The position numbers and the translations under genes are program-made. 64,000 nt of DNA from Alphaproteobacteria bacterium (lineage in GTDB: Bacteria; Pseudomonadota; Alphaproteobacteria; Ferrovibrionales; Ferrovibrionaceae), in NCBI GenBank assembly GCA_017307375.1, contig JAFKFH010000009.1, positions 124,001 through 188,000 of the forward strand, written 5' to 3'. Of this stretch, positions 6,947 to 29,034 are shown piece after piece; the first letter of the stretch is position 1; the number at the start of each line of letters is the position of its first letter. The notes under the pieces are model-generated. The model was given only the letters and a program-made list of their open reading frames with translations. It made no database searches and was not told the origin of the DNA.

Positions 6947-8281
6947 TCAGCTGCCGTAGCGCCGATTGAGCTCGCGATAGAGGGCGTAGGCGTCCTCGGC
7001 ACCGGACATCAGTTCGATCAGGCGGGTTGCGTGCCCGATTTCGGCCACCATCGCCTCACGCCGCTCGTCGGCACTGCCTTCGGCGGTCCTGGCCCGCCGG
7101 CCGACACCTTCCAGCAGGGCGCTGCGGATCTTGCCCGTCGCATCGTCGAGCGCGTCGGTCAGGCCGAGATCGTCGGAAATCTGGCGACAGGTGCGCAATG
7201 CCTTCGCGCGCTGCTCGGCCTCGGCCGGCTGGCCATCGGCGGTGACCACGGCAATGGCGTCGTTCAGCACGACGTCGTCGACCATGTCGCGCAGCCGGCC
7301 GCGCGCGGCGGCGACGACACCCTTCATGCTCTGCGCTGCCGCCGGCCCGACAGCGGTATCGAAGCGCCGCGCCTCGTCGAGGAAGCGGCGTCCGAGCCGC
7401 GTGACCGCCCGGTCGGTGAGGGGCGCGCCGCTGGAGATATCCTCGGCCATGCGCTCGAGCGAGCCGGCAAGCAATCGATGCGTGAATGCCATCAGCGTCG
7501 GCGCACTCGCCAGGCCGCTGGCCAGCGCCTCGCGCCCCTGCACCAGCCTGAGCACCTCGTAGGATTGCTCGAGCCGCGGCAGCACCAGCATCACGATATG
7601 CGCCAGCGCGGGCGTCCCGCGCTCGGCGGCCGCATCGAGGCGGGCGCCGACGCCCGCGACCTGGGCATCGGCGAGCTTGCCGACCGGCACCGGCGACAGC
7701 AGATCGTCGACGACCACGGCATCTTCCCAGGCGACCATCAGCCCGACGATGTCCTCGAATTCCTCGTAGAGCGCATCGGACCCCAGCTGCTCGACGACCG
7801 CCGCCCGCTCGGCCCGGTCCGACCGGCAACGGTCGCGAATCCGGACCAGCGCCTTGCTGGCGGCCGGCCAGATCACCGCGCCGGCGGCGATCGTGCGGGC
7901 GCGCTCATGCGCGCCGGACGCGTCGGCGCAAGCCTGCCGCCACTCCGCCTCGACACCCCCCTGCAAATGCGCCTGCAACAGGCTCCAGACCGGCCGAATG
8001 GTCGCACGGCTGATGCGGCCGATAATCCGCTGCTGGATCCGGTTGCCCGCCAGCAGCTGTTCGAAAGGCCAGCAGAACACGCGCAGCGGCGTGGTCACCC
8101 GGTCGGGACGCTCGATCTGCAATCGCGGGCGGATGAGATCAAGGGCTGCGTCGGCGACCTTGGCGCCGGCTGCCTGTTCACGGCTTGTCTCGAGCAGCCG
8201 TGCAAGCCTCTCGACCTTCTCCCGCTGCAGCGTGAACAGCTTCTCGGAGATTTCGCTCAGCTCGGCAGCGATGTCCGTCAT
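6947..8281 (-). CDS. Unrecognised helical protein of 444 aa
   Basis: I do not recognise this family. The protein is almost wholly alpha-helical by composition, rich in Ala, Arg, Leu and Glu. It starts with a coiled-coil-like stretch (LSEISEKLFTLQREKVERLARLLE) and then has a distinctive segment RVFCWPFEQLL followed by IGRISRATIRPVWSLL. No signal peptide, membrane segment or catalytic motif is visible. It overlaps the upstream 376-aa gene by 4 nt (ATGA), so the two are translationally coupled and probably work together. A protein with a degenerate receiver is encoded divergently upstream of the pair. Confidence 0.8.
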   Translation of the reverse strand: MTDIAAELSEISEKLFTLQREKVERLARLLETSREQAAGAKVADAALDLIRPRLQIERPDRVTTPLRVFCWPFEQLLAGNRIQQRIIGRISRATIRPVWSLLQAHLQGGVEAEWRQACADASGAHERARTIAAGAVIWPAASKALVRIRDRCRSDRAERAAVVEQLGSDALYEEFEDIVGLMVAWEDAVVVDDLLSPVPVGKLADAQVAGVGARLDAAAERGTPALAHIVMLVLPRLEQSYEVLRLVQGREALASGLASAPTLMAFTHRLLAGSLERMAEDISSGAPLTDRAVTRLGRRFLDEARRFDTAVGPAAAQSMKGVVAAARGRLRDMVDDVVLNDAIAVVTADGQPAEAEQRAKALRTCRQISDDLGLTDALDDATGKIRSALLEGVGRRARTAEGSADERREAMVAEIGHATRLIELMSGAEDAYALYRELNRRYGS

Positions 8282-9408
8282 ACCGCGGACCTCTTGTAAC
8301 GTTCCAGACGCTCGATGATGTCGTCATCGAGGGCGTCGGTCTGCCAGCCATGAAGAACGCGCACGCGCCGCTTGGTCGAGATATCCGCCGCCGCCCGCTT
8401 GGCCACGCCCGAAATTTCACCTTCGGGCAGCAACGGCAAAAGTCGAAAGATATCGGCGACCACCGACCGCTGCGCCGACCGCTCCTGGCCGGAAACCGCT
8501 TCATCCCACATTACCAGGATGAATTCCCAGCCGTCGAGTGTCCAACTAATCCGATCTACAGTATCCGAAAGGGTCAACCGAGCCGCGGTCCAGTTCCGCA
8601 AAACGCCCAGCGGTTTGGCCTGCAGCCGGTCGAGATCGGCGAGGGCGGTGTCCGCCACCGATGCGGTGAGCCGGGCGAGATCGCCGGCAAAACGGGCCAT
8701 GTAGGCCGAATCCTCATGTTCCGACTTGCTCCAGTCGGTGATGGCGCCGGCGAAATCGACAATGCGGCGATTGAGGCGGCGGAACCGCGCCGCCACCGGC
8801 GCACGCGCCAGCCCCGCCGGGGCCAGGATCTCGCCCCAGCGCTCGATCGCGTCATAGGTGCTGGCGCCGTCGAGACCGACCATGGTGGCGATGGCATCGA
8901 TGGCCGCCTTGACCCGCTGCTGGCCAGCGGGCGTCACCAGGTCGGGCAAGTCGAGCGACAGGTCGGTCTTGGCAGCTTCCAGGCAGGTAAGGATCAGGAA
9001 AAAAGTCGTAAGCAGCCGGTCGCCGTCGGCTTCCTGGATGATGCGCGCCGCGGCCTCGGCGCCTTCCGGACCGGCGAGTCCCTGACGGGCGACGTAAAGC
9101 GCGGCCGTCCGCACCTTGTCGGGCGTCGCCGCCTGCCGCCGCTCGATCTCGTCGCGCAGGACCCGGTCGTGCAGGGTCATTCCGGGAAACACGTTGAGCA
9201 GTTCGGCCCAGCGGATGATGTAGGAGCCCTTCATCCCGCCCAGGGCCGGTACCGCCAGCTCGAGCTGTTGGCGATAGTCTTCCCGCACCCGCCCCTGCGC
9301 GATCGAGGGGCTGGTGAAGGGTACTGCAGCGCCACGCTCCGCAAAGCGCTGAGGCAGGAATTCCCGCGCTGCCACCGACGGCATCGAAGACGACATGAGC
9401 CCAACCAC
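8278..9408 (-). CDS. Unrecognised helical protein of 376 aa
   Basis: I do not recognise this family. The N-terminal segment LPQRFAERGAAVPFTSP looks conserved in style, and the rest is helical with WAELLNVFPGM and a Trp-rich motif ISWTLDGWEFILVMWDEAV. No membrane segments or catalytic signature can be seen. Alternative starts exist at 9396 and 9384; 9408 is simply the longest. It is the first gene of the leftward pair, divergent from the receiver-fold gene across about 200 bp, so a shared promoter region is plausible. Confidence 0.78.
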   Translation of the reverse strand: MVGLMSSSMPSVAAREFLPQRFAERGAAVPFTSPSIAQGRVREDYRQQLELAVPALGGMKGSYIIRWAELLNVFPGMTLHDRVLRDEIERRQAATPDKVRTAALYVARQGLAGPEGAEAAARIIQEADGDRLLTTFFLILTCLEAAKTDLSLDLPDLVTPAGQQRVKAAIDAIATMVGLDGASTYDAIERWGEILAPAGLARAPVAARFRRLNRRIVDFAGAITDWSKSEHEDSAYMARFAGDLARLTASVADTALADLDRLQAKPLGVLRNWTAARLTLSDTVDRISWTLDGWEFILVMWDEAVSGQERSAQRSVVADIFRLLPLLPEGEISGVAKRAAADISTKRRVRVLHGWQTDALDDDIIERLERYKRSAV

Positions 9409-9610
9409 TCCATCGCGTACCGCGCGTGTGAGTCCGCGCTTAAAATTGATCTTTAGTCCAAATTACTGACGATTTTCCTAGTCGCCGACAGCAGCATAGA
9501 CGTAGCCGTACTAAGGTTCCATTATCGATCGAAGCAACGATACATCAAAATTTTAGCTTTCATCCGACGTCATCTTGGACGCCGACTTAATACCCTGGGG
9601 CATGTAGCGC
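9409..9610. other. AT-rich divergent intergenic region
   Basis: About 200 bp of sequence clearly more AT-rich than its surroundings separates the unknown gene pair from the divergent receiver-fold gene. It should hold both promoters. I see a short TATCG/CGATA inverted repeat near 9523-9542 but no motif I can assign to a known regulator. Confidence 0.4.
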
Positions 9611-10501
9611 ATGAGCAGTCTTCGCGATCTCAGTCTTGTCGTCGTCGATGGCGATTCACACGCGCTCGGCATTTGCGAAACGCTGCTCAAAGGCATGGGC
9701 GTGGACCGGCTGAGGCTGTTCACCGACCCCAACGAAGCCATCGCATCGATCAAGGAGCATCCGCCGTCGTTGATCCTTGCAGCCCTCGAAATGCGTGCGA
9801 TGAACGGCTTCAAGCTGGCAGAGACGCTGCGGGCGGAAACGCCCGCCGAGGAAACCCCCATACCGCTTCTGCTGATGGCCAAGGAATCGAAGCCGGAGCT
9901 GATTCAGCATGCGAAACGGGTTGGCATCGACGACTATCTGATCAAGCCGCTGTCGGCGCGCATCCTTTCACAACGCCTCACCGCCGTGCTGCAGCGGCGG
10001 GACATCGCGGCACTTACAGCGCTGGAAGGCGGAGCGACGCCGACCACGACGACCTATGCCCCGCCCGGCCTGCGCCTGCGCGAGAATTTCGGCTTCGCCA
10101 ATGCCGAGGCCGTGCTTGCCGGCCTGCGGCGGCGTTTCGGTGACGGCCTGGTCGACCAGGTCGACATGCTGCGCAGTCAGTATCAGGCGATCGAAACCGC
10201 CGCCAAGGCAGGCAAGGCCGCGCCCGATGCGCTGCGCGACCTGCATCAGCGCAGCGAGGATCTGCGCGGCATCGGGCCCGAGATGGGCTTTCCGCTGATC
10301 GGCAAGTTCAGCGACCAGCTCAGCGAGCTGACCGCCGAACGGGAGACCCTGAACGATCAGGAGCTGCGCCTGTCGCTTGCGCTGATCGACGCGATGGCCG
10401 AAGTCGCCAAGAGCCGCATCGAAGGTGATGGCGGGGCGGTCGGCCAGAACCTGCTCAACGCCGTCACCCGGACGATGAACCGGCTGCGCACCGAAGCCTA
10501 G
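9611..10501 (+). CDS. Degenerate receiver plus HPt-like helical domain protein
   Basis: A 296-aa protein with an N-terminal CheY-like fold (residues about 6-128) and a C-terminal helical domain. The acidic pocket is partly kept (VDGDS) and the switch Lys is present (YLIKPLS, Lys112), but the phosphoacceptor position in LILAALEM is Ala58 instead of Asp. The C-terminal domain has a segment DLRGIGPEMGFPL that resembles an alphaproteobacterial HPt core (HxLKGxxxxFG), but the phospho-His position is not His. It therefore looks like a non-phosphorylatable adaptor built from two-component parts. It is divergent from the unknown pair at 6947-9408, which it may serve. Confidence 0.8.
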   Translation: MSSLRDLSLVVVDGDSHALGICETLLKGMGVDRLRLFTDPNEAIASIKEHPPSLILAALEMRAMNGFKLAETLRAETPAEETPIPLLLMAKESKPELIQHAKRVGIDDYLIKPLSARILSQRLTAVLQRRDIAALTALEGGATPTTTTYAPPGLRLRENFGFANAEAVLAGLRRRFGDGLVDQVDMLRSQYQAIETAAKAGKAAPDALRDLHQRSEDLRGIGPEMGFPLIGKFSDQLSELTAERETLNDQELRLSLALIDAMAEVAKSRIEGDGGAVGQNLLNAVTRTMNRLRTEA

Positions 10502-11834: not shown

Positions 11835-12677
11835 CTATGTCTTGACCCGGGTGACCAGCTGCGTCGGGTTGACGAAGCGCAGCGCGATCAGCAGCCAGGC
11901 GAGCGTCAGGATCATGTAGGTCACCGCCATCGCCGAAATCGACTGCCCGGCCCGGACCCCCGCCGCGAACGCCGCGTAGTAGAGCGAGACGACCAGGGTC
12001 TGGCTGTCCGGCCCGGCGGTCAGGAAGGTCAGCTCGAACATCGCGATGGTGCGCACCATCACCATCAGCGAGGCGGCGAGGATGCCCGGCGCCAGCAGCG
12101 GCACCAGCACATGGACGAAGACGCGGAAGGTATTGGCGCCGAAGACGCGCGCGGCGGCTTCGAGCTTCGGGTCGATCTGCTCGATGAACGGCGTCATCAC
12201 CATGATGACGAAGGGCACGGTCGGCACCAGGTTCGCCAGGATCACCCCGGCGAGCGAGCCGCCGAGATTGACCTTGTAGAGCACGGTGGCCAGCGGAATG
12301 CCGTAGGTGATCGGCGGCACCATCATCGGCAGCAGGAACAGCAGCTGGACGATGCGCTTGCCGGGAAATTCGGCGCGGGCCAGCGCATAGGCGGCCGGCA
12401 CCCCGATCAGGGCCGACAGCGCGACGACCGCGACGGTGACCTGCATGGTGACGAACAGGACGTCGCCCAGCTGGAATTCCGACCAGGCCGACGAATACCA
12501 TCGCGTCGTCAGCCCGGCCGGAAACCAGGTGCCGAGCCAGCGCGTGGCAAAGGAGTTGAGCAGGACGGTGGCGATCATCGCCCCGACATTGACCAGGAAG
12601 AAGATCATCACGACCCAGATCGCGATGTTCCAGGCCTGGGCGCCGGCGCGGGTCTGCGAAGCGTTGCGCATGAACAT
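11835..12677 (-). CDS. ABC transporter permease (polyamine/iron-type, PotC-like)
   Basis: A 280-aa inner-membrane permease with about six TM segments. The EAA-type loop, LEAAARVFGANTFRVFVHVLVPLL, is the ATPase contact of this importer class (short motif only). The start at 12677 follows the other permease stop by 11 nt. It pairs with the PotB-like subunit and the ATPase upstream. Confidence 0.92.
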   Translation of the reverse strand: MFMRNASQTRAGAQAWNIAIWVVMIFFLVNVGAMIATVLLNSFATRWLGTWFPAGLTTRWYSSAWSEFQLGDVLFVTMQVTVAVVALSALIGVPAAYALARAEFPGKRIVQLLFLLPMMVPPITYGIPLATVLYKVNLGGSLAGVILANLVPTVPFVIMVMTPFIEQIDPKLEAAARVFGANTFRVFVHVLVPLLAPGILAASLMVMVRTIAMFELTFLTAGPDSQTLVVSLYYAAFAAGVRAGQSISAMAVTYMILTLAWLLIALRFVNPTQLVTRVKT

Positions 12678-12688
12678 GGTGCCCTCCC

Positions 12689-13588
12689 TCAACCCTTGCC
12701 GCCGCCGACCGGGCCGCGATAGACCAGCCGCCGGCCCGACAGCACCAGGACGGTGATGGCGAGCTGGACCAGGCCCATGATCATCGCGACGGCCGAGGCC
12801 ATCGGGAAATCGTAGTTCTCGAACGCCGCTTCGTAGGCGGCGATCGAGATGACGCGGGTCGCGCCGGCCGGCGCGCCGAGCAGCACCGCCGACGGGAATA
12901 CCGAGAACGCCTGGACGAAGGTCAGGCAGAACGCGACGGCAAGGCCGGGCAGCAGCAGCGGAAAATAGATCTCCTTGAACTGCCGCCAGGGTCCGGCCCC
13001 CAGCGTACGCGCCGCCTGGGCCAGGACCGGATCGATGCCGGTGATGTAGGACAGCGTCAGCAGGAAGGTGAACGGAAAACCCGACACGACCAGCGAGAGC
13101 AGGACGCCGGTGTAGTTGTGCACCAGCCGGATCGGGCTGTCGACGAGACCGAGGCCAAGCAGGATGCGGTTCACCCAGCCCTGCGGCCCGAGATAGGTCA
13201 GCAGCCCGTCGGCGATCAGCACGGTGCCGAGGGTGATCGGAATGACCAGCAGCGTGGTGACGAAGCGCTGGCCGCCCGAAGGCACGCGCATGCGATAGGC
13301 GATCGGCACCGAGGCGCCGACATTGATCAGCGTGGCCGGCAGGGCAAGCCACAGGGTCTTGGCGATGGTCCCGTAATAGGCAGGGTCGGCGAAGAATTTC
13401 GCATAATTGGCCAGCCACCCCTGCGCCGCCTCGAGCGGCGAGAAGGACAGGACGAGGCCGTAGCCGAACGGGAAGATGAACAGCGCCAGCACGAAGATCA
13501 CGGCGGGCAGGGCCAGCCAGGCGGCACGGTCAATCCGCACCGGCTGGCGTTCGGGCAGCGTGGCCGCAGGCAGGGCGTCGACGGTCAT
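12689..13588 (-). CDS. ABC transporter permease (polyamine/iron-type, PotB-like)
   Basis: A 299-aa permease that begins with a cytoplasmic tail and a TM helix (LALPAVIFVLALFIFPFGYG). The conserved loop is QAARTLGAGPWRQFKEIYFPLL (short motif). It begins 6 nt after the ATPase stop and ends 11 nt before the PotC-like gene. It forms the heterodimeric channel with that subunit. Confidence 0.92.
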   Translation of the reverse strand: MTVDALPAATLPERQPVRIDRAAWLALPAVIFVLALFIFPFGYGLVLSFSPLEAAQGWLANYAKFFADPAYYGTIAKTLWLALPATLINVGASVPIAYRMRVPSGGQRFVTTLLVIPITLGTVLIADGLLTYLGPQGWVNRILLGLGLVDSPIRLVHNYTGVLLSLVVSGFPFTFLLTLSYITGIDPVLAQAARTLGAGPWRQFKEIYFPLLLPGLAVAFCLTFVQAFSVFPSAVLLGAPAGATRVISIAAYEAAFENYDFPMASAVAMIMGLVQLAITVLVLSGRRLVYRGPVGGGKG

Positions 13589-14765: not shown

Positions 14766-15953
14766 TTACTTGTTCTTGGCGGCACCGATCTCGGTGTCCC
14801 AGCGCCGGAACGCCGCCACCATCGCATCGGCCCCCAGCGGCACGGCCTTCGGATGATCGGCGATCCAGGCATCGTATTCCGGCCGCCCGAACTCCTTGAT
14901 CGCCGCCTGGCTCTTCGCCGGGGCCATCGACAGCGGCACGTCCTTGATCGCCGGACCCGGGTAGAAGTACCCCTCATCATAGGCATAGGCCTGCTGGGCC
15001 GGTTCCAGCATGAAGGCCATCATGTCGAGGACGACGGCAAGCTTCTCCGGGGCGATGCCCTTGGGCACCACCATGTAGTGGGCGTCGGTGACCCAGGTGA
15101 AATTCTTCAGCAGGCCGACCTTGACCTCCTTGGGCACGGTGCCGAGCACGCGCGGGTTGATGTCCCAGCCGGTGGTCGAGACGATGATGTCGCGCGAGCC
15201 TTCGCCCAGCTCCTTCATCGTCGGGCCGGTGCCGGCCGGATAGTATTCGATGTAGTTGCCCAGCTCCTTCAGATAGGCCCAGGTCTTGTCCCAGCCCTTT
15301 TCCGGATCCATCGGGTCCTTGTCGCCGAGGATATAGGGCAGTCCCATCAGGAAGGTGCGGCCGGGGCCGGAATTGGCCGGGCGGCCGTAGAAGAAGCGAT
15401 TCGGATTGGCCTTGGCCCAGGCCAGCAGCTCCTCGGCGGTGGTCGGCGGGGTCTTGACCTTGTCCGGATTATATTCGATCAGCGGGCCCGACGGATAATA
15501 GGTCACGACGACGCCCTTGCCCTCGGCCAGCGTCTGCATCTTGGCCGCGGGTTCGAGATAAGCCTTGGCGAAACCGGGCTTCTTCTTCTCGAGCATCGCC
15601 TCGACCGGCTGCCACAGGTCGAGCTTGATGCCGGCGGCCAGTGCGTCGGTGCCGGTCAGGATCAGGTCGATATCGACCTTGCCCGCCGATTGCTGGGCCT
15701 TGACCTTGCCGGCCAGTTCCGGCGACGGCGCCTTGGTGAAGGTGATCTTGGAGACCAGCTTCTCGTGCGTCTTGCGATAATTCTCCAACGCCTCCTGGGT
15801 CAGCGCCAGGTTGCCGGCGACGTCGACGATGTTGAGCTGGACAGGCGCGGTCGGCAGGGCGGGCACGTCCTGGGCCATCGCCGGCACGAAGCCCGCGACC
15901 AGCGACCCGGCAATGCCGGCCACCACGGCACGGCGGATGAGATCGATCTGCAT
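14766..15953 (-). CDS. Extracellular solute-binding protein (family 1 type)
   Basis: The periplasmic binding protein of the polyamine/iron-type importer, 395 aa. The signal peptide runs through AGIAGSLVAGFVPAMAQD. The body follows the family-1 pattern, with a SAGKVDIDLILTG segment in the first lobe and a Trp-rich ligand-side region. Downstream are its ATPase and two permeases, and upstream is the RraA-like gene. The ligand is probably the carboxylic or sugar acid handled by the neighbouring enzymes. Confidence 0.9.
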   Translation of the reverse strand: MQIDLIRRAVVAGIAGSLVAGFVPAMAQDVPALPTAPVQLNIVDVAGNLALTQEALENYRKTHEKLVSKITFTKAPSPELAGKVKAQQSAGKVDIDLILTGTDALAAGIKLDLWQPVEAMLEKKKPGFAKAYLEPAAKMQTLAEGKGVVVTYYPSGPLIEYNPDKVKTPPTTAEELLAWAKANPNRFFYGRPANSGPGRTFLMGLPYILGDKDPMDPEKGWDKTWAYLKELGNYIEYYPAGTGPTMKELGEGSRDIIVSTTGWDINPRVLGTVPKEVKVGLLKNFTWVTDAHYMVVPKGIAPEKLAVVLDMMAFMLEPAQQAYAYDEGYFYPGPAIKDVPLSMAPAKSQAAIKEFGRPEYDAWIADHPKAVPLGADAMVAAFRRWDTEIGAAKNK

Positions 15954-15984
15954 TTTTTCCTCCCTAGGGTTTGTCGTCGTCAGA

Positions 15985-16695
15985 TCAGAGCTTGGCCTTG
16001 TAGGCTTCGAACTCCGCCCGCGTCTTCTCGTCGGGCGGGTACAGACCGAGGATCGAACGGCCCTCGAGCACCCGGGCCTCGACCCAGTCCTCGAAGATCG
16101 TCATCGACGCCGCCTCCTCGGCGATCTCGTTGGCGATGGCGGCCGGGATGACCACCACGCCCTCGTCGTCGCCGACGATGATGTCGCCGGGATAGACCGG
16201 CGCATCGCCGCAACCGATCGGCACGTTGATGTCGATGGCATGATGGAGGGTCAGGTTCGTCGGTGCCGACGGCCGGACGCAGTAGACGGGAAAGTCGAGC
16301 CCGGCGCAGGTGCCCGAATCGCGGAAGCCGCCGTCGGTGACGACGCCGGCCGCGCCGCGCACCATCATGCGGGTGATCAGGATCCCGCCGGCCGAGGCCG
16401 CGCGCGGATCCTTGCGCGAATCGATCACCATGACATGGCCGGGCGGGATGTCCTCGACCGCCTTGCGCTGCGGATGGCTGCGATCCTCGAACACCTTGAT
16501 GTGATCGAGATCCTCGCGCGCCGGGATGTAGCGAAGCGTGAAGGCCTCGCCGACCATGCGCGCGGCCTTCGGGTTCAGCGGCAGCACGCCCTGGATGGCG
16601 GTATTGCGCAGGCCGCGCTTGAACAGCGCCGTGGTGATGGTTGCGGTGGAAACCCGGGCCAGCCGTGCCCGGTTTTCCGGCGTCAACGCACTCAT
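15985..16695 (-). CDS. RraA family protein (HMG/CHA aldolase or regulator-like)
   Basis: A 236-aa RraA-fold protein. Members either bind RNase E as regulators or act as class II aldolases or decarboxylases on 4-hydroxy-4-methyl-2-oxoglutarate-type substrates. Aldolase-like motifs are visible: GEAFTLRYIPA, VMVIDSRKD, GVVTDGGFRDS, and GCGDAPVYPGDIIVGDDEGVVVIP (short motifs). The GGxxRD segment and the downstream acidic metal-site region favour an enzyme. Placement at the head of a catabolic transport operon also favours an aldolase or lyase. The start at 16695 was chosen for the fold; the long upstream in-frame extension is intergenic. Confidence 0.87.
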   Translation of the reverse strand: MSALTPENRARLARVSTATITTALFKRGLRNTAIQGVLPLNPKAARMVGEAFTLRYIPAREDLDHIKVFEDRSHPQRKAVEDIPPGHVMVIDSRKDPRAASAGGILITRMMVRGAAGVVTDGGFRDSGTCAGLDFPVYCVRPSAPTNLTLHHAIDINVPIGCGDAPVYPGDIIVGDDEGVVVIPAAIANEIAEEAASMTIFEDWVEARVLEGRSILGLYPPDEKTRAEFEAYKAKL

Positions 16696-28337: not shown

Positions 28338-28660
28338 CTATCGCACGAGGGTCGCGCCGATCCGGGCCAGGACCCGATCGAGCAGGACGGTATTGATCGG
28401 CTTGCTGAGATGATCGTCCATCCCCGCCTCCCTGCACGCCCTGACCTGCTCGGCGAAGGCGTCGGCGGTGAGCGCGACGATCGGGATCGCCGCGGTCGAG
28501 GTGGGCAGCGCGCGGATCGCCCGGGTCGCCGAGATGCCGTCGAGGACGGGCATCTGCACATCCATCAGCACGAGGTCGTAGGGCGCGGCCTGCACCGCCT
28601 CGATCGCCGCCTGTCCGTTCTCGGCGACCTCGCAACGATGGCCCGCCCCCTTGAGCAGGG
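28338..28660 (-). pseudogene. 3' stump of a receiver-domain gene interrupted by the prophage
   Basis: The host part encodes the C-terminal portion of a receiver (LLKGAGHRCEVAENGQAAIE onward, then LVLMDVQMPVLDG with the phospho-Asp, and the late Lys segment HLSKPINT). The first strand and helix, with the acidic pair, are missing; upstream codons run into the prophage end at 28661. The style (AGHRCEVAENG, QMPVLDG) is that of a C-terminal receiver in a hybrid histidine kinase, whose 5' part should lie past the right end of the prophage. The fragment converges with the FixJ-like gene. Confidence 0.85.
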
Positions 28661-28738
28661 TGAAGCGCCGCGCGAAATTCGAGCGCGCAGAAGCGCGATA
28701 AATCACTTCGCTAAACGATTTCCAAGATCGAAAACGAA
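28661..28738. other. Right end of the Mu-like prophage with transposase-binding-like sites
   Basis: TGAAGCGCCGCGCGAAA (28661-28677) matches the start of the Mu right end, TGAAGCGGCGCACGAAA, at 15 of 17 positions. CGATAAAT (28696-28703) matches the second Mu site at similar spacing, and CGATTTCCAAGATCGAAAAC (28716-28735) is a third MuA-site-like element. The terminal TG fits Mu-type ends. The adjacent host pentamer CAGGG (28656-28660) should be the target duplication and recur at the other end. Confidence 0.8.
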
Positions 28739-28740
28739 TT

Positions 28741-29034
28741 TCAGTTTGTGCCTGCGGCCTGGTCGGCGAGTTGTCCGGCAGCCTCGACGCCGGGCGGGGC
28801 ATAGACCAAGACGCCAGCCGGCGAGTAGAACGCGCCGCGACATAGGATAAATCCGGGGCCGACCGGCAGGATTGTGCCGTCCGCCGCCTCGCCGTTCACG
28901 TAGTAGGAAGACATAGGGCCACCGGCCGGCGCCAGCGGCGACGGCGGCGCGTCGACCGGCCAGACTTCGACGTTTGCAACGGTCTCGACGGACGAGCCGA
29001 CGTTCAGAACTTTAATCCATCGGTGCGCGGTCAT
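28741..29034 (-). CDS. Small phage protein at the end of the fibre module
   Basis: A 97-aa protein of unknown role. It begins MTAHRWIKVLNVGSS, is rich in Gly, Pro and Ala, and has no recognised domain. It is the last phage gene before the prophage end. Similar positions in other phages hold fibre-assembly or host-range accessory proteins. Confidence 0.6.
   Translation of the reverse strand: MTAHRWIKVLNVGSSVETVANVEVWPVDAPPSPLAPAGGPMSSYYVNGEAADGTILPVGPGFILCRGAFYSPAGVLVYAPPGVEAAGQLADQAAGTN

Follow-up and report, generated by a model that had tools for sequence, protein, structure and literature searches.

The window, by which we mean the whole stretch of 64,000 nucleotides analysed here, encodes a receiver–Hpt fusion in which the phosphoacceptors of both domains are lost, and which, judged by alignment and phylogeny, is a fast-evolving paralogue of an intact receiver–Hpt protein, as its greater divergence from the reference fusion of genome G015 (27% identity, compared to 39% for the intact copy of the same genome) indicates. 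The pattern of dead receiver/Hpt pairs that we found across the family is of more interest than the window gene itself, a divergent dead paralogue.

Both phosphoacceptors are lost in the fusion

Residues 10–123 match PF00072 (Response_reg, Pfam) with 55.4 bits against a cut-off of 30.2 (E = 8.1e-15). The alignment places Ala58, within LILAALEM, in the phospho-Asp column, as the preliminary description had it, and the second metal Asp and the Thr/Ser are replaced by Gly14 and Met89, leaving two of the five active-site residues (Asp13 and Lys112 in the set D13 G14 A58 M89 K112). The domain has the PF00072 fold and lacks the full complement of acidic pair, phospho-Asp, Thr/Ser and Lys that marks an active receiver, and the protein fits the definition of a pseudo-receiver in the accessible text of Bourret et al. 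2025 (PMC12632262).

In the C-terminal half, the motif AHxxKGQGxxFGYPL around the His column of the homologues reads SEDLRGIGPEMGFPL, with Glu216 in place of the phospho-accepting His of an active Hpt. The absence of a His from DLRGIGPEMGF had been pointed out before, and the preliminary description was correct in its observations wherever their details could be checked. Pfam PF01627 (Hpt) gave no match in this half up to E = 1. Among nine homologues scanned against the Pfam Hpt profile, five passed the cut-off (L031, L032, L033, L034 and L035, the first three with E values of 1e-6, 1e-7 and 6e-7) and four matched below it. Since the window protein is similar over its full length to L031 (E = 5.7e-33) and L032 (E = 2.0e-31), whose C-terminal halves pass the Hpt cut-off, its C-terminal domain is by homology an Hpt. 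A receiver score far over threshold, together with the full-length match to the paralogue (E = 5.7e-33), puts these sequence similarities beyond chance. Asp and His are both present in 26 of the 26 non-redundant intact relatives, a count that describes only that set, which was picked for having both. Beside the lost His the window copy still has R219-G220, and elsewhere K112-P113 as well as a number of structural glycines.

A single-sequence model of the window protein was poor, with a mean pLDDT of 54.9. Adding 34 receiver rows gave a confident receiver (block means mostly 92–98), while the Hpt part still stood at about 48–61, and the six helices predicted for residues 165–295 are at this level only. 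The receiver model resembles CheY structures, with a TM score by target of about 0.9 in the top rows, among them the CheY D57A mutant 1e6m, which is also the best PDB sequence match. The fold searches with the window model were dominated by receivers and carry no information on the Hpt half. Taken together, the confident receiver model and the Hpt homology support the earlier view that both domains are kept as folds only.

Table 1. Features of the fusion gene, its surroundings and two related loci (positions are those of the window unless a locus or contig is named)
Feature	Position	Strand	Remarks
Pseudo-receiver/pseudo-Hpt fusion gene	9611..10501	+	ORF exact, 296 aa, stop included
Pseudo-receiver domain	9611..10015	+	residues 1-135 in the alignment; D13 and K112 retained, G14 in place of Asp, M89 in place of Thr
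Ala58 codon, phospho-Asp position	9782..9784	+	
Linker	10016..10087	+	residues 136-159, model confidence mostly low
Pseudo-Hpt domain	10088..10498	+	residues 160-296; R219-G220, G222, P228-L229, G272, G274-G275, G278 kept
Glu216 codon, phospho-His position	10256..10258	+	
Intergenic region shared with divergent pair, 202 bp	9409..9610	.	
Divergent neighbour, 376 aa	8278..9408	-	no Pfam match; paralogue at G000:C41
Second gene of divergent pair, 444 aa	6947..8281	-	no Pfam match; paralogue at G000:C41
C-terminal (receiver) half of split hybrid kinase	28338..28802	-	context
Other half of split kinase	L403 4156-6087, G000:C13 near 190155-192086	-	
His-to-Trp Hpt and Asp-to-Glu receiver	L307 (G003:C1:2119000-2138900), 12192-12782 and 15524-16075	- and +	

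Relationship to an intact receiver–Hpt protein

The genome to which the window belongs (G000, 7.54 Mb) contains one full-length homologue of the fusion, at C16:155912-156769 (33% identical, E = 5.7e-33). This homologue has retained the Asp as well as the His, and a PAS-HisKA-HATPase-receiver hybrid kinase is encoded immediately upstream of it. Another intact receiver–Hpt fusion stands behind a hybrid kinase in G015 (C71). Trees built from concatenated receiver and Hpt columns group the window protein with the intact fusions of C16 and G015, with a support of 96 for 69 rows and of 97 for 99 rows with the trait columns left out. Its exact place is unsure because of its long branch (2.11 compared to 0.89 for the intact own-genome paralogue in the 99-row tree). 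The Hpt-only tree gives its placement without resolution, and constraining it into the dead clade described below costs 23.2 log-likelihood units, with an AU p of 0.086, in the 69-row analysis.

The genus is represented by one genome. A viral-contig scan with the window protein revealed no relative, a plasmid search with the Hpt half no match, and a scan of named genomes, which may omit the own genome and very near ones, no close orthologue; in the best 80 of the 96 relatives from this last scan, no match reaches the Hpt His region. Since these searches brought to light no orthologue of the gene, a direct sign of selection on it is absent. The preliminary description had held that orthologues with Asp and His would mean local decay. 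The C16 and G015 proteins do keep both residues, but they are paralogues or distant relatives, not orthologues.

Such decay, in which an unneeded duplicate of the receiver–Hpt gene drifts to loss in one lineage and the missing residues are without function, agrees with the occurrence of the gene in a single genome, with its long branch and with its lower identity to G015. Outside the acceptor and metal sites there are 41 conserved positions, of which the window protein keeps 23, fewer than any other row compared (26 intact rows: median 36.5, range 24–40). Of the four positions of the acceptor set whose conservation among the intact rows is 75% or higher, it keeps one. With only 23 of these 41 positions kept, its divergence is general and extends beyond the active sites, which makes local decay a serious rival. 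By the same count, a loss selective for the active sites is not shown by the window copy, the protein being diverged throughout.

The kinase next to the intact paralogue has its closest own-genome relative on the contig of the window, about 18 kb from the window gene and not adjacent to it, and this relative is itself broken. A Mu-like prophage, which carries Mu portal, tail sheath and minor tail genes and an integrase-type transposase, interrupts the kinase gene within the part for the receiver domain. The two halves lie about 37 kb apart and are 59–63% identical to the C16 kinase. The arrangement may at most hint at a once-paired duplicate made up of the window gene and the split kinase, and the breakage adds to the case for decay. 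On the other side, the 296-codon frame of the window gene is open with a clear codon-position bias (GC 0.70/0.45/0.80), and the protein still has its core glycines, the Pro-Leu pair and the GDGG motif. On balance we consider decay of this copy unlikely, though far from negligible.

Doubly dead receiver/Hpt pairs recur in relatives

Receiver and Hpt genes were collected from the 18 genomes of the family (f1) and a class sample. The 119 unique Hpt domains, a sample dominated by orthologues of genus g4 and weighted to one family, so that its rows are not independent, comprise 53 with the His and 66 without it. The replacements are Phe (22), Leu (22), Trp (9), Val (5), Met (3), Ser (2), Ala (1), Tyr (1) and Glu (1), the last being the window protein. 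In the 69 rows with a fused or adjacent receiver, all 21 Glu receivers are accompanied by a His-less Hpt and all six Asn receivers by an Hpt with His, the 41 Asp receivers divide into 30 with a His Hpt and 11 without, and the sole Ala receiver is that of the window. Another 74 Hpt rows, taken from L332-L402 and overlapping in part with the places of the first set, gave a similar picture: Glu receivers with His-less Hpt, 15 of 15; Asn receivers with His, 8 of 8; Asp receivers, 24 with a His Hpt and 14 with a His-less one; a single Ala receiver, with His; and, among 12 rows that lack a receiver letter, six with His and six without. Counting dead and intact members together, the Hpt family occurs at E ≤ 1e-10 in 136 of the 385 class genomes.

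The pairs of Glu receiver and His-less Hpt occur in eight family codes (f1, f57, f96, f107, f125, f128, f135 and f156). Among 99 rows below 85% identity, all 18 non-redundant Glu-receiver pairs are His-less and form one clade with a support of 100, in which the receiver Asp has become Glu and the Hpt His has become Phe, Leu, Tyr or Ile; with its fused domains, the window protein appears to stand apart from this dead operon clade. The presence of His changes at least five times on well-supported branches of the 99-row tree, and about 9–10 times on the best tree. Counted row by row, rows that have lost the Asp are His-less in 11 of 11 cases compared to 7 of 33 (Fisher 4e-6, for 44 of 48 non-redundant rows, four Asn rows being excluded), but when descent is counted the linkage comes down to three independent contrasts only and is not significant (median p 0.5). 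An intact Asp goes with a His-less Hpt in 18 of the 99 rows, and L381 (G382:C151:46400-48700; 810-1364, + strand) is a counter-example to joint loss, with an intact-His Hpt beside a receiver in which Ala replaces the Asp and Met replaces the Lys. Niveispirillum cyanobacteriorum offers a named example of a His-less Hpt on its 1.0-Mb replicon NZ_CP025613.1, with Asp in place of the His and a receiver that retains its Asp. A separate group of receivers has Asn at the phospho-Asp position (SNWQM-like) with an intact-His Hpt adjoining (L018, L036, L037, L038, L203, L210, L218 and others).

The main chemotaxis cluster of G003, which encodes CheA, CheW and CheD, also includes a dead Hpt of the Trp type and a dead receiver of the Glu type. 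The Glu is found in eight of eight chemotaxis-cluster receivers, from eight g4 genomes, and the Trp-type Hpt in nine g4 genomes. A single origin of the dead receivers of the chemotaxis cluster and of the operons has a tree support of 19. Caulobacter CheYIII/CheE is a conceivable counterpart of this chemotaxis-cluster pair.

The loss of the acceptors in these relatives leaves much of the remaining sequence in place. The dead operon clade (10 non-redundant rows) keeps none of three acceptor/metal positions and a median of 32.5 of the 41 other conserved positions; its second metal Asp is usually lost, and the remaining Hpt signature is kept. Nine aligned dead Hpts show no variation in the KG adjacent to the lost His or in the PL that follows later. 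We estimated dN/dS between close g4 orthologues by a simple counting method, with four to seven loci per group. Two dead Hpts of the operon type came out at medians of 0.21 and 0.32, the Hpt from the chemotaxis cluster at 0.22 and the dead Hpts that stand alone at 0.07 and 0.12; dead receivers had medians of 0.16, 0.25 and 0.07. As controls, an intact His Hpt gave 0.35 and an intact Asp receiver 0.095. By this measure the dead receiver and Hpt genes of the relatives are maintained under purifying selection, which speaks against decay as the explanation for the window gene as well; the recurrence and conservation of the dead pairs make a reading as nothing but local decay less compelling in general. 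Eight of ten dead Hpts scanned fall below the Pfam cut-off, and the dead class is therefore easily overlooked.

The unfused dead Hpts share an N-terminal LKRKAVN...G motif just before the bundle (L146, L123, L194, L195, L205, L259, L265, L251 and L302), which is possibly a candidate binding motif. The window fusion has no motif of this type by inspection.

A broader proposal would be that the Alphaproteobacteria possess old, conserved pseudo-phosphorelays, in which an Asp-less receiver and a His-less Hpt are co-encoded, co-inherited and kept under purifying selection to act by docking only, the window protein being an independent, single-chain version. We put this forward as possible, though somewhat doubtful.

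The divergent neighbours form a pair conserved within family f1

The two genes divergent from the fusion had been described as unrecognised, and both indeed lack a Pfam match; the pair has no NCBIfam or convincing PHROG match either, and for the 376-aa protein no PDB profile match was better than E = 0.1. The 376-aa gene is found in 13 of the 18 f1 genomes and in none of the 43 others searched, and the 444-aa gene in 12 of the 18 and weakly in 3 of the 43. The pair (6947-9408, - strand) is a conserved two-gene unit of family f1, with a second copy in the own genome at G000:C41:50579-53100.

The divergent layout, with its shared intergenic region, and the duplication of both the pair and the receiver–Hpt gene elsewhere in the genome would fit with the three genes being one unit, in which control would run from the dead relay protein to the pair or the other way round. 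At five other loci (own C41, G003, G015, G008 and G013), however, the pair stands without an adjoining receiver–Hpt gene, which makes such a private partnership improbable. The link of the dead relay protein to both neighbours that the preliminary description had drawn is not borne out by these loci.

A possible role as a decoy or adaptor

A receiver without the Asp and a complete metal site, joined to an Hpt without the His, cannot relay phosphate, so docking is what can remain to the window protein. The HxxKG motif has a role in receiver docking, and the kept R219-G220, K112-P113 and glycines of the fusion may form a working docking face. We tentatively favour, at a little below an even chance, the reading that the window protein is a duplicated receiver–Hpt protein which has lost its phosphate chemistry and serves as a phosphorylation-independent competitor or tether, that is a decoy or adaptor, of the paralogous hybrid-kinase relay, acting, if at all, by docking. 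A receiver–Hpt gene would have been duplicated and one copy would have lost phosphate chemistry in both domains, with the face of the dead Hpt, of the dead receiver or of both still binding partners of the paralogous relay. Candidate partners would be the C16 hybrid kinase and receiver–Hpt pair, or a related hybrid kinase, with which the docked window protein would compete or which it would tether, passing no phosphate. Function, binding and the choice of partner are our inference for the window copy. The scaffold or sequestering adaptor that the preliminary description had proposed is likewise a conjecture.

Two precedents favour the competitor or tether reading. The receiver-like protein Osp binds and inhibits the hybrid kinase CckA while unphosphorylated, according to the accessible text of PMC9430884, and the plant pseudo-Hpt AHP6 is a proposed competitor of working Hpts in the available portion of PMC7402358.

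Glu216 could instead imitate a charged or phosphorylated Hpt and keep the protein permanently 'on' towards its target, given that an acidic residue occupies the His site of the window protein and that the change of the receiver Asp to Glu is the rule in the dead operon clade. However, Glu216 is unique among the 119 Hpts, the other replacements being mostly hydrophobic (the Phe, Leu and Trp counted above: 22, 22 and 9), and the receiver of the window has Ala, not Glu. We regard a constitutive mimic as highly improbable.

Comparison with known systems

The Hpt family studied here is mostly His-less (66 of the 119 surveyed) and its partner receiver is often dead, which would make it a natural system for examining a relay pair minus its chemistry; the conserved dead pairs suggest that these proteins work by partner binding and not by phosphate transfer. 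In the accessible text of PMC12632262, the His is missing in 90 of 10,312 Hpt domains (0.9%), phosphotransfer cannot bypass the Hpt His, and pseudo-receivers are common, with the switching of bacterial pseudo-receivers still a mystery. Pseudo-receivers have been described before, as has a pseudo-Hpt; in the open-access listings searched, we found no report on bacterial genes that are conserved although both acceptors are gone.

The closest counterparts of the window protein are the intact fused receiver–Hpt proteins (own C16; C71 and C116 of G015), which have the same domains in the same order and a similar length, but keep Asp and His, those of C16 and G015 C71 lying directly behind a hybrid kinase. 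The dead operon pairs share with the window protein the joint loss of both acceptors, whereas they are encoded by two separate genes, carry Asp to Glu and His to Phe, Leu, Tyr or Ile, and form a clade of their own (support 100). Pseudo-receivers or aspartate-less receivers, as described in the accessible parts of PMC12632262 and PMC4395418, are likewise PF00072 domains without the phosphotransfer residues, and DD2 is lost more often than DD1, as in the window protein, which differs from them in being fused to an Hpt that is also dead. In AHP6, the phospho-His of the Hpt is replaced as in the window protein, but AHP6 is a plant protein with His to Asn and no receiver attached, as far as the available text of PMC7402358 goes. 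HmrX of Caulobacter, compared by description only from the accessible part of PMC11481889, is likewise alphaproteobacterial, a putative Hpt that stands alone and is predicted to fold as a four-helix bundle; unlike the window protein, it has a candidate His, H81. Finally, Osp of Rhodobacter sphaeroides, likened by its description in the accessible text of PMC9430884, is an alphaproteobacterial receiver-like protein that acts on a hybrid kinase while unphosphorylated, and it differs from the window protein in being a single domain that keeps Asp51 and is without the two acidic residues.
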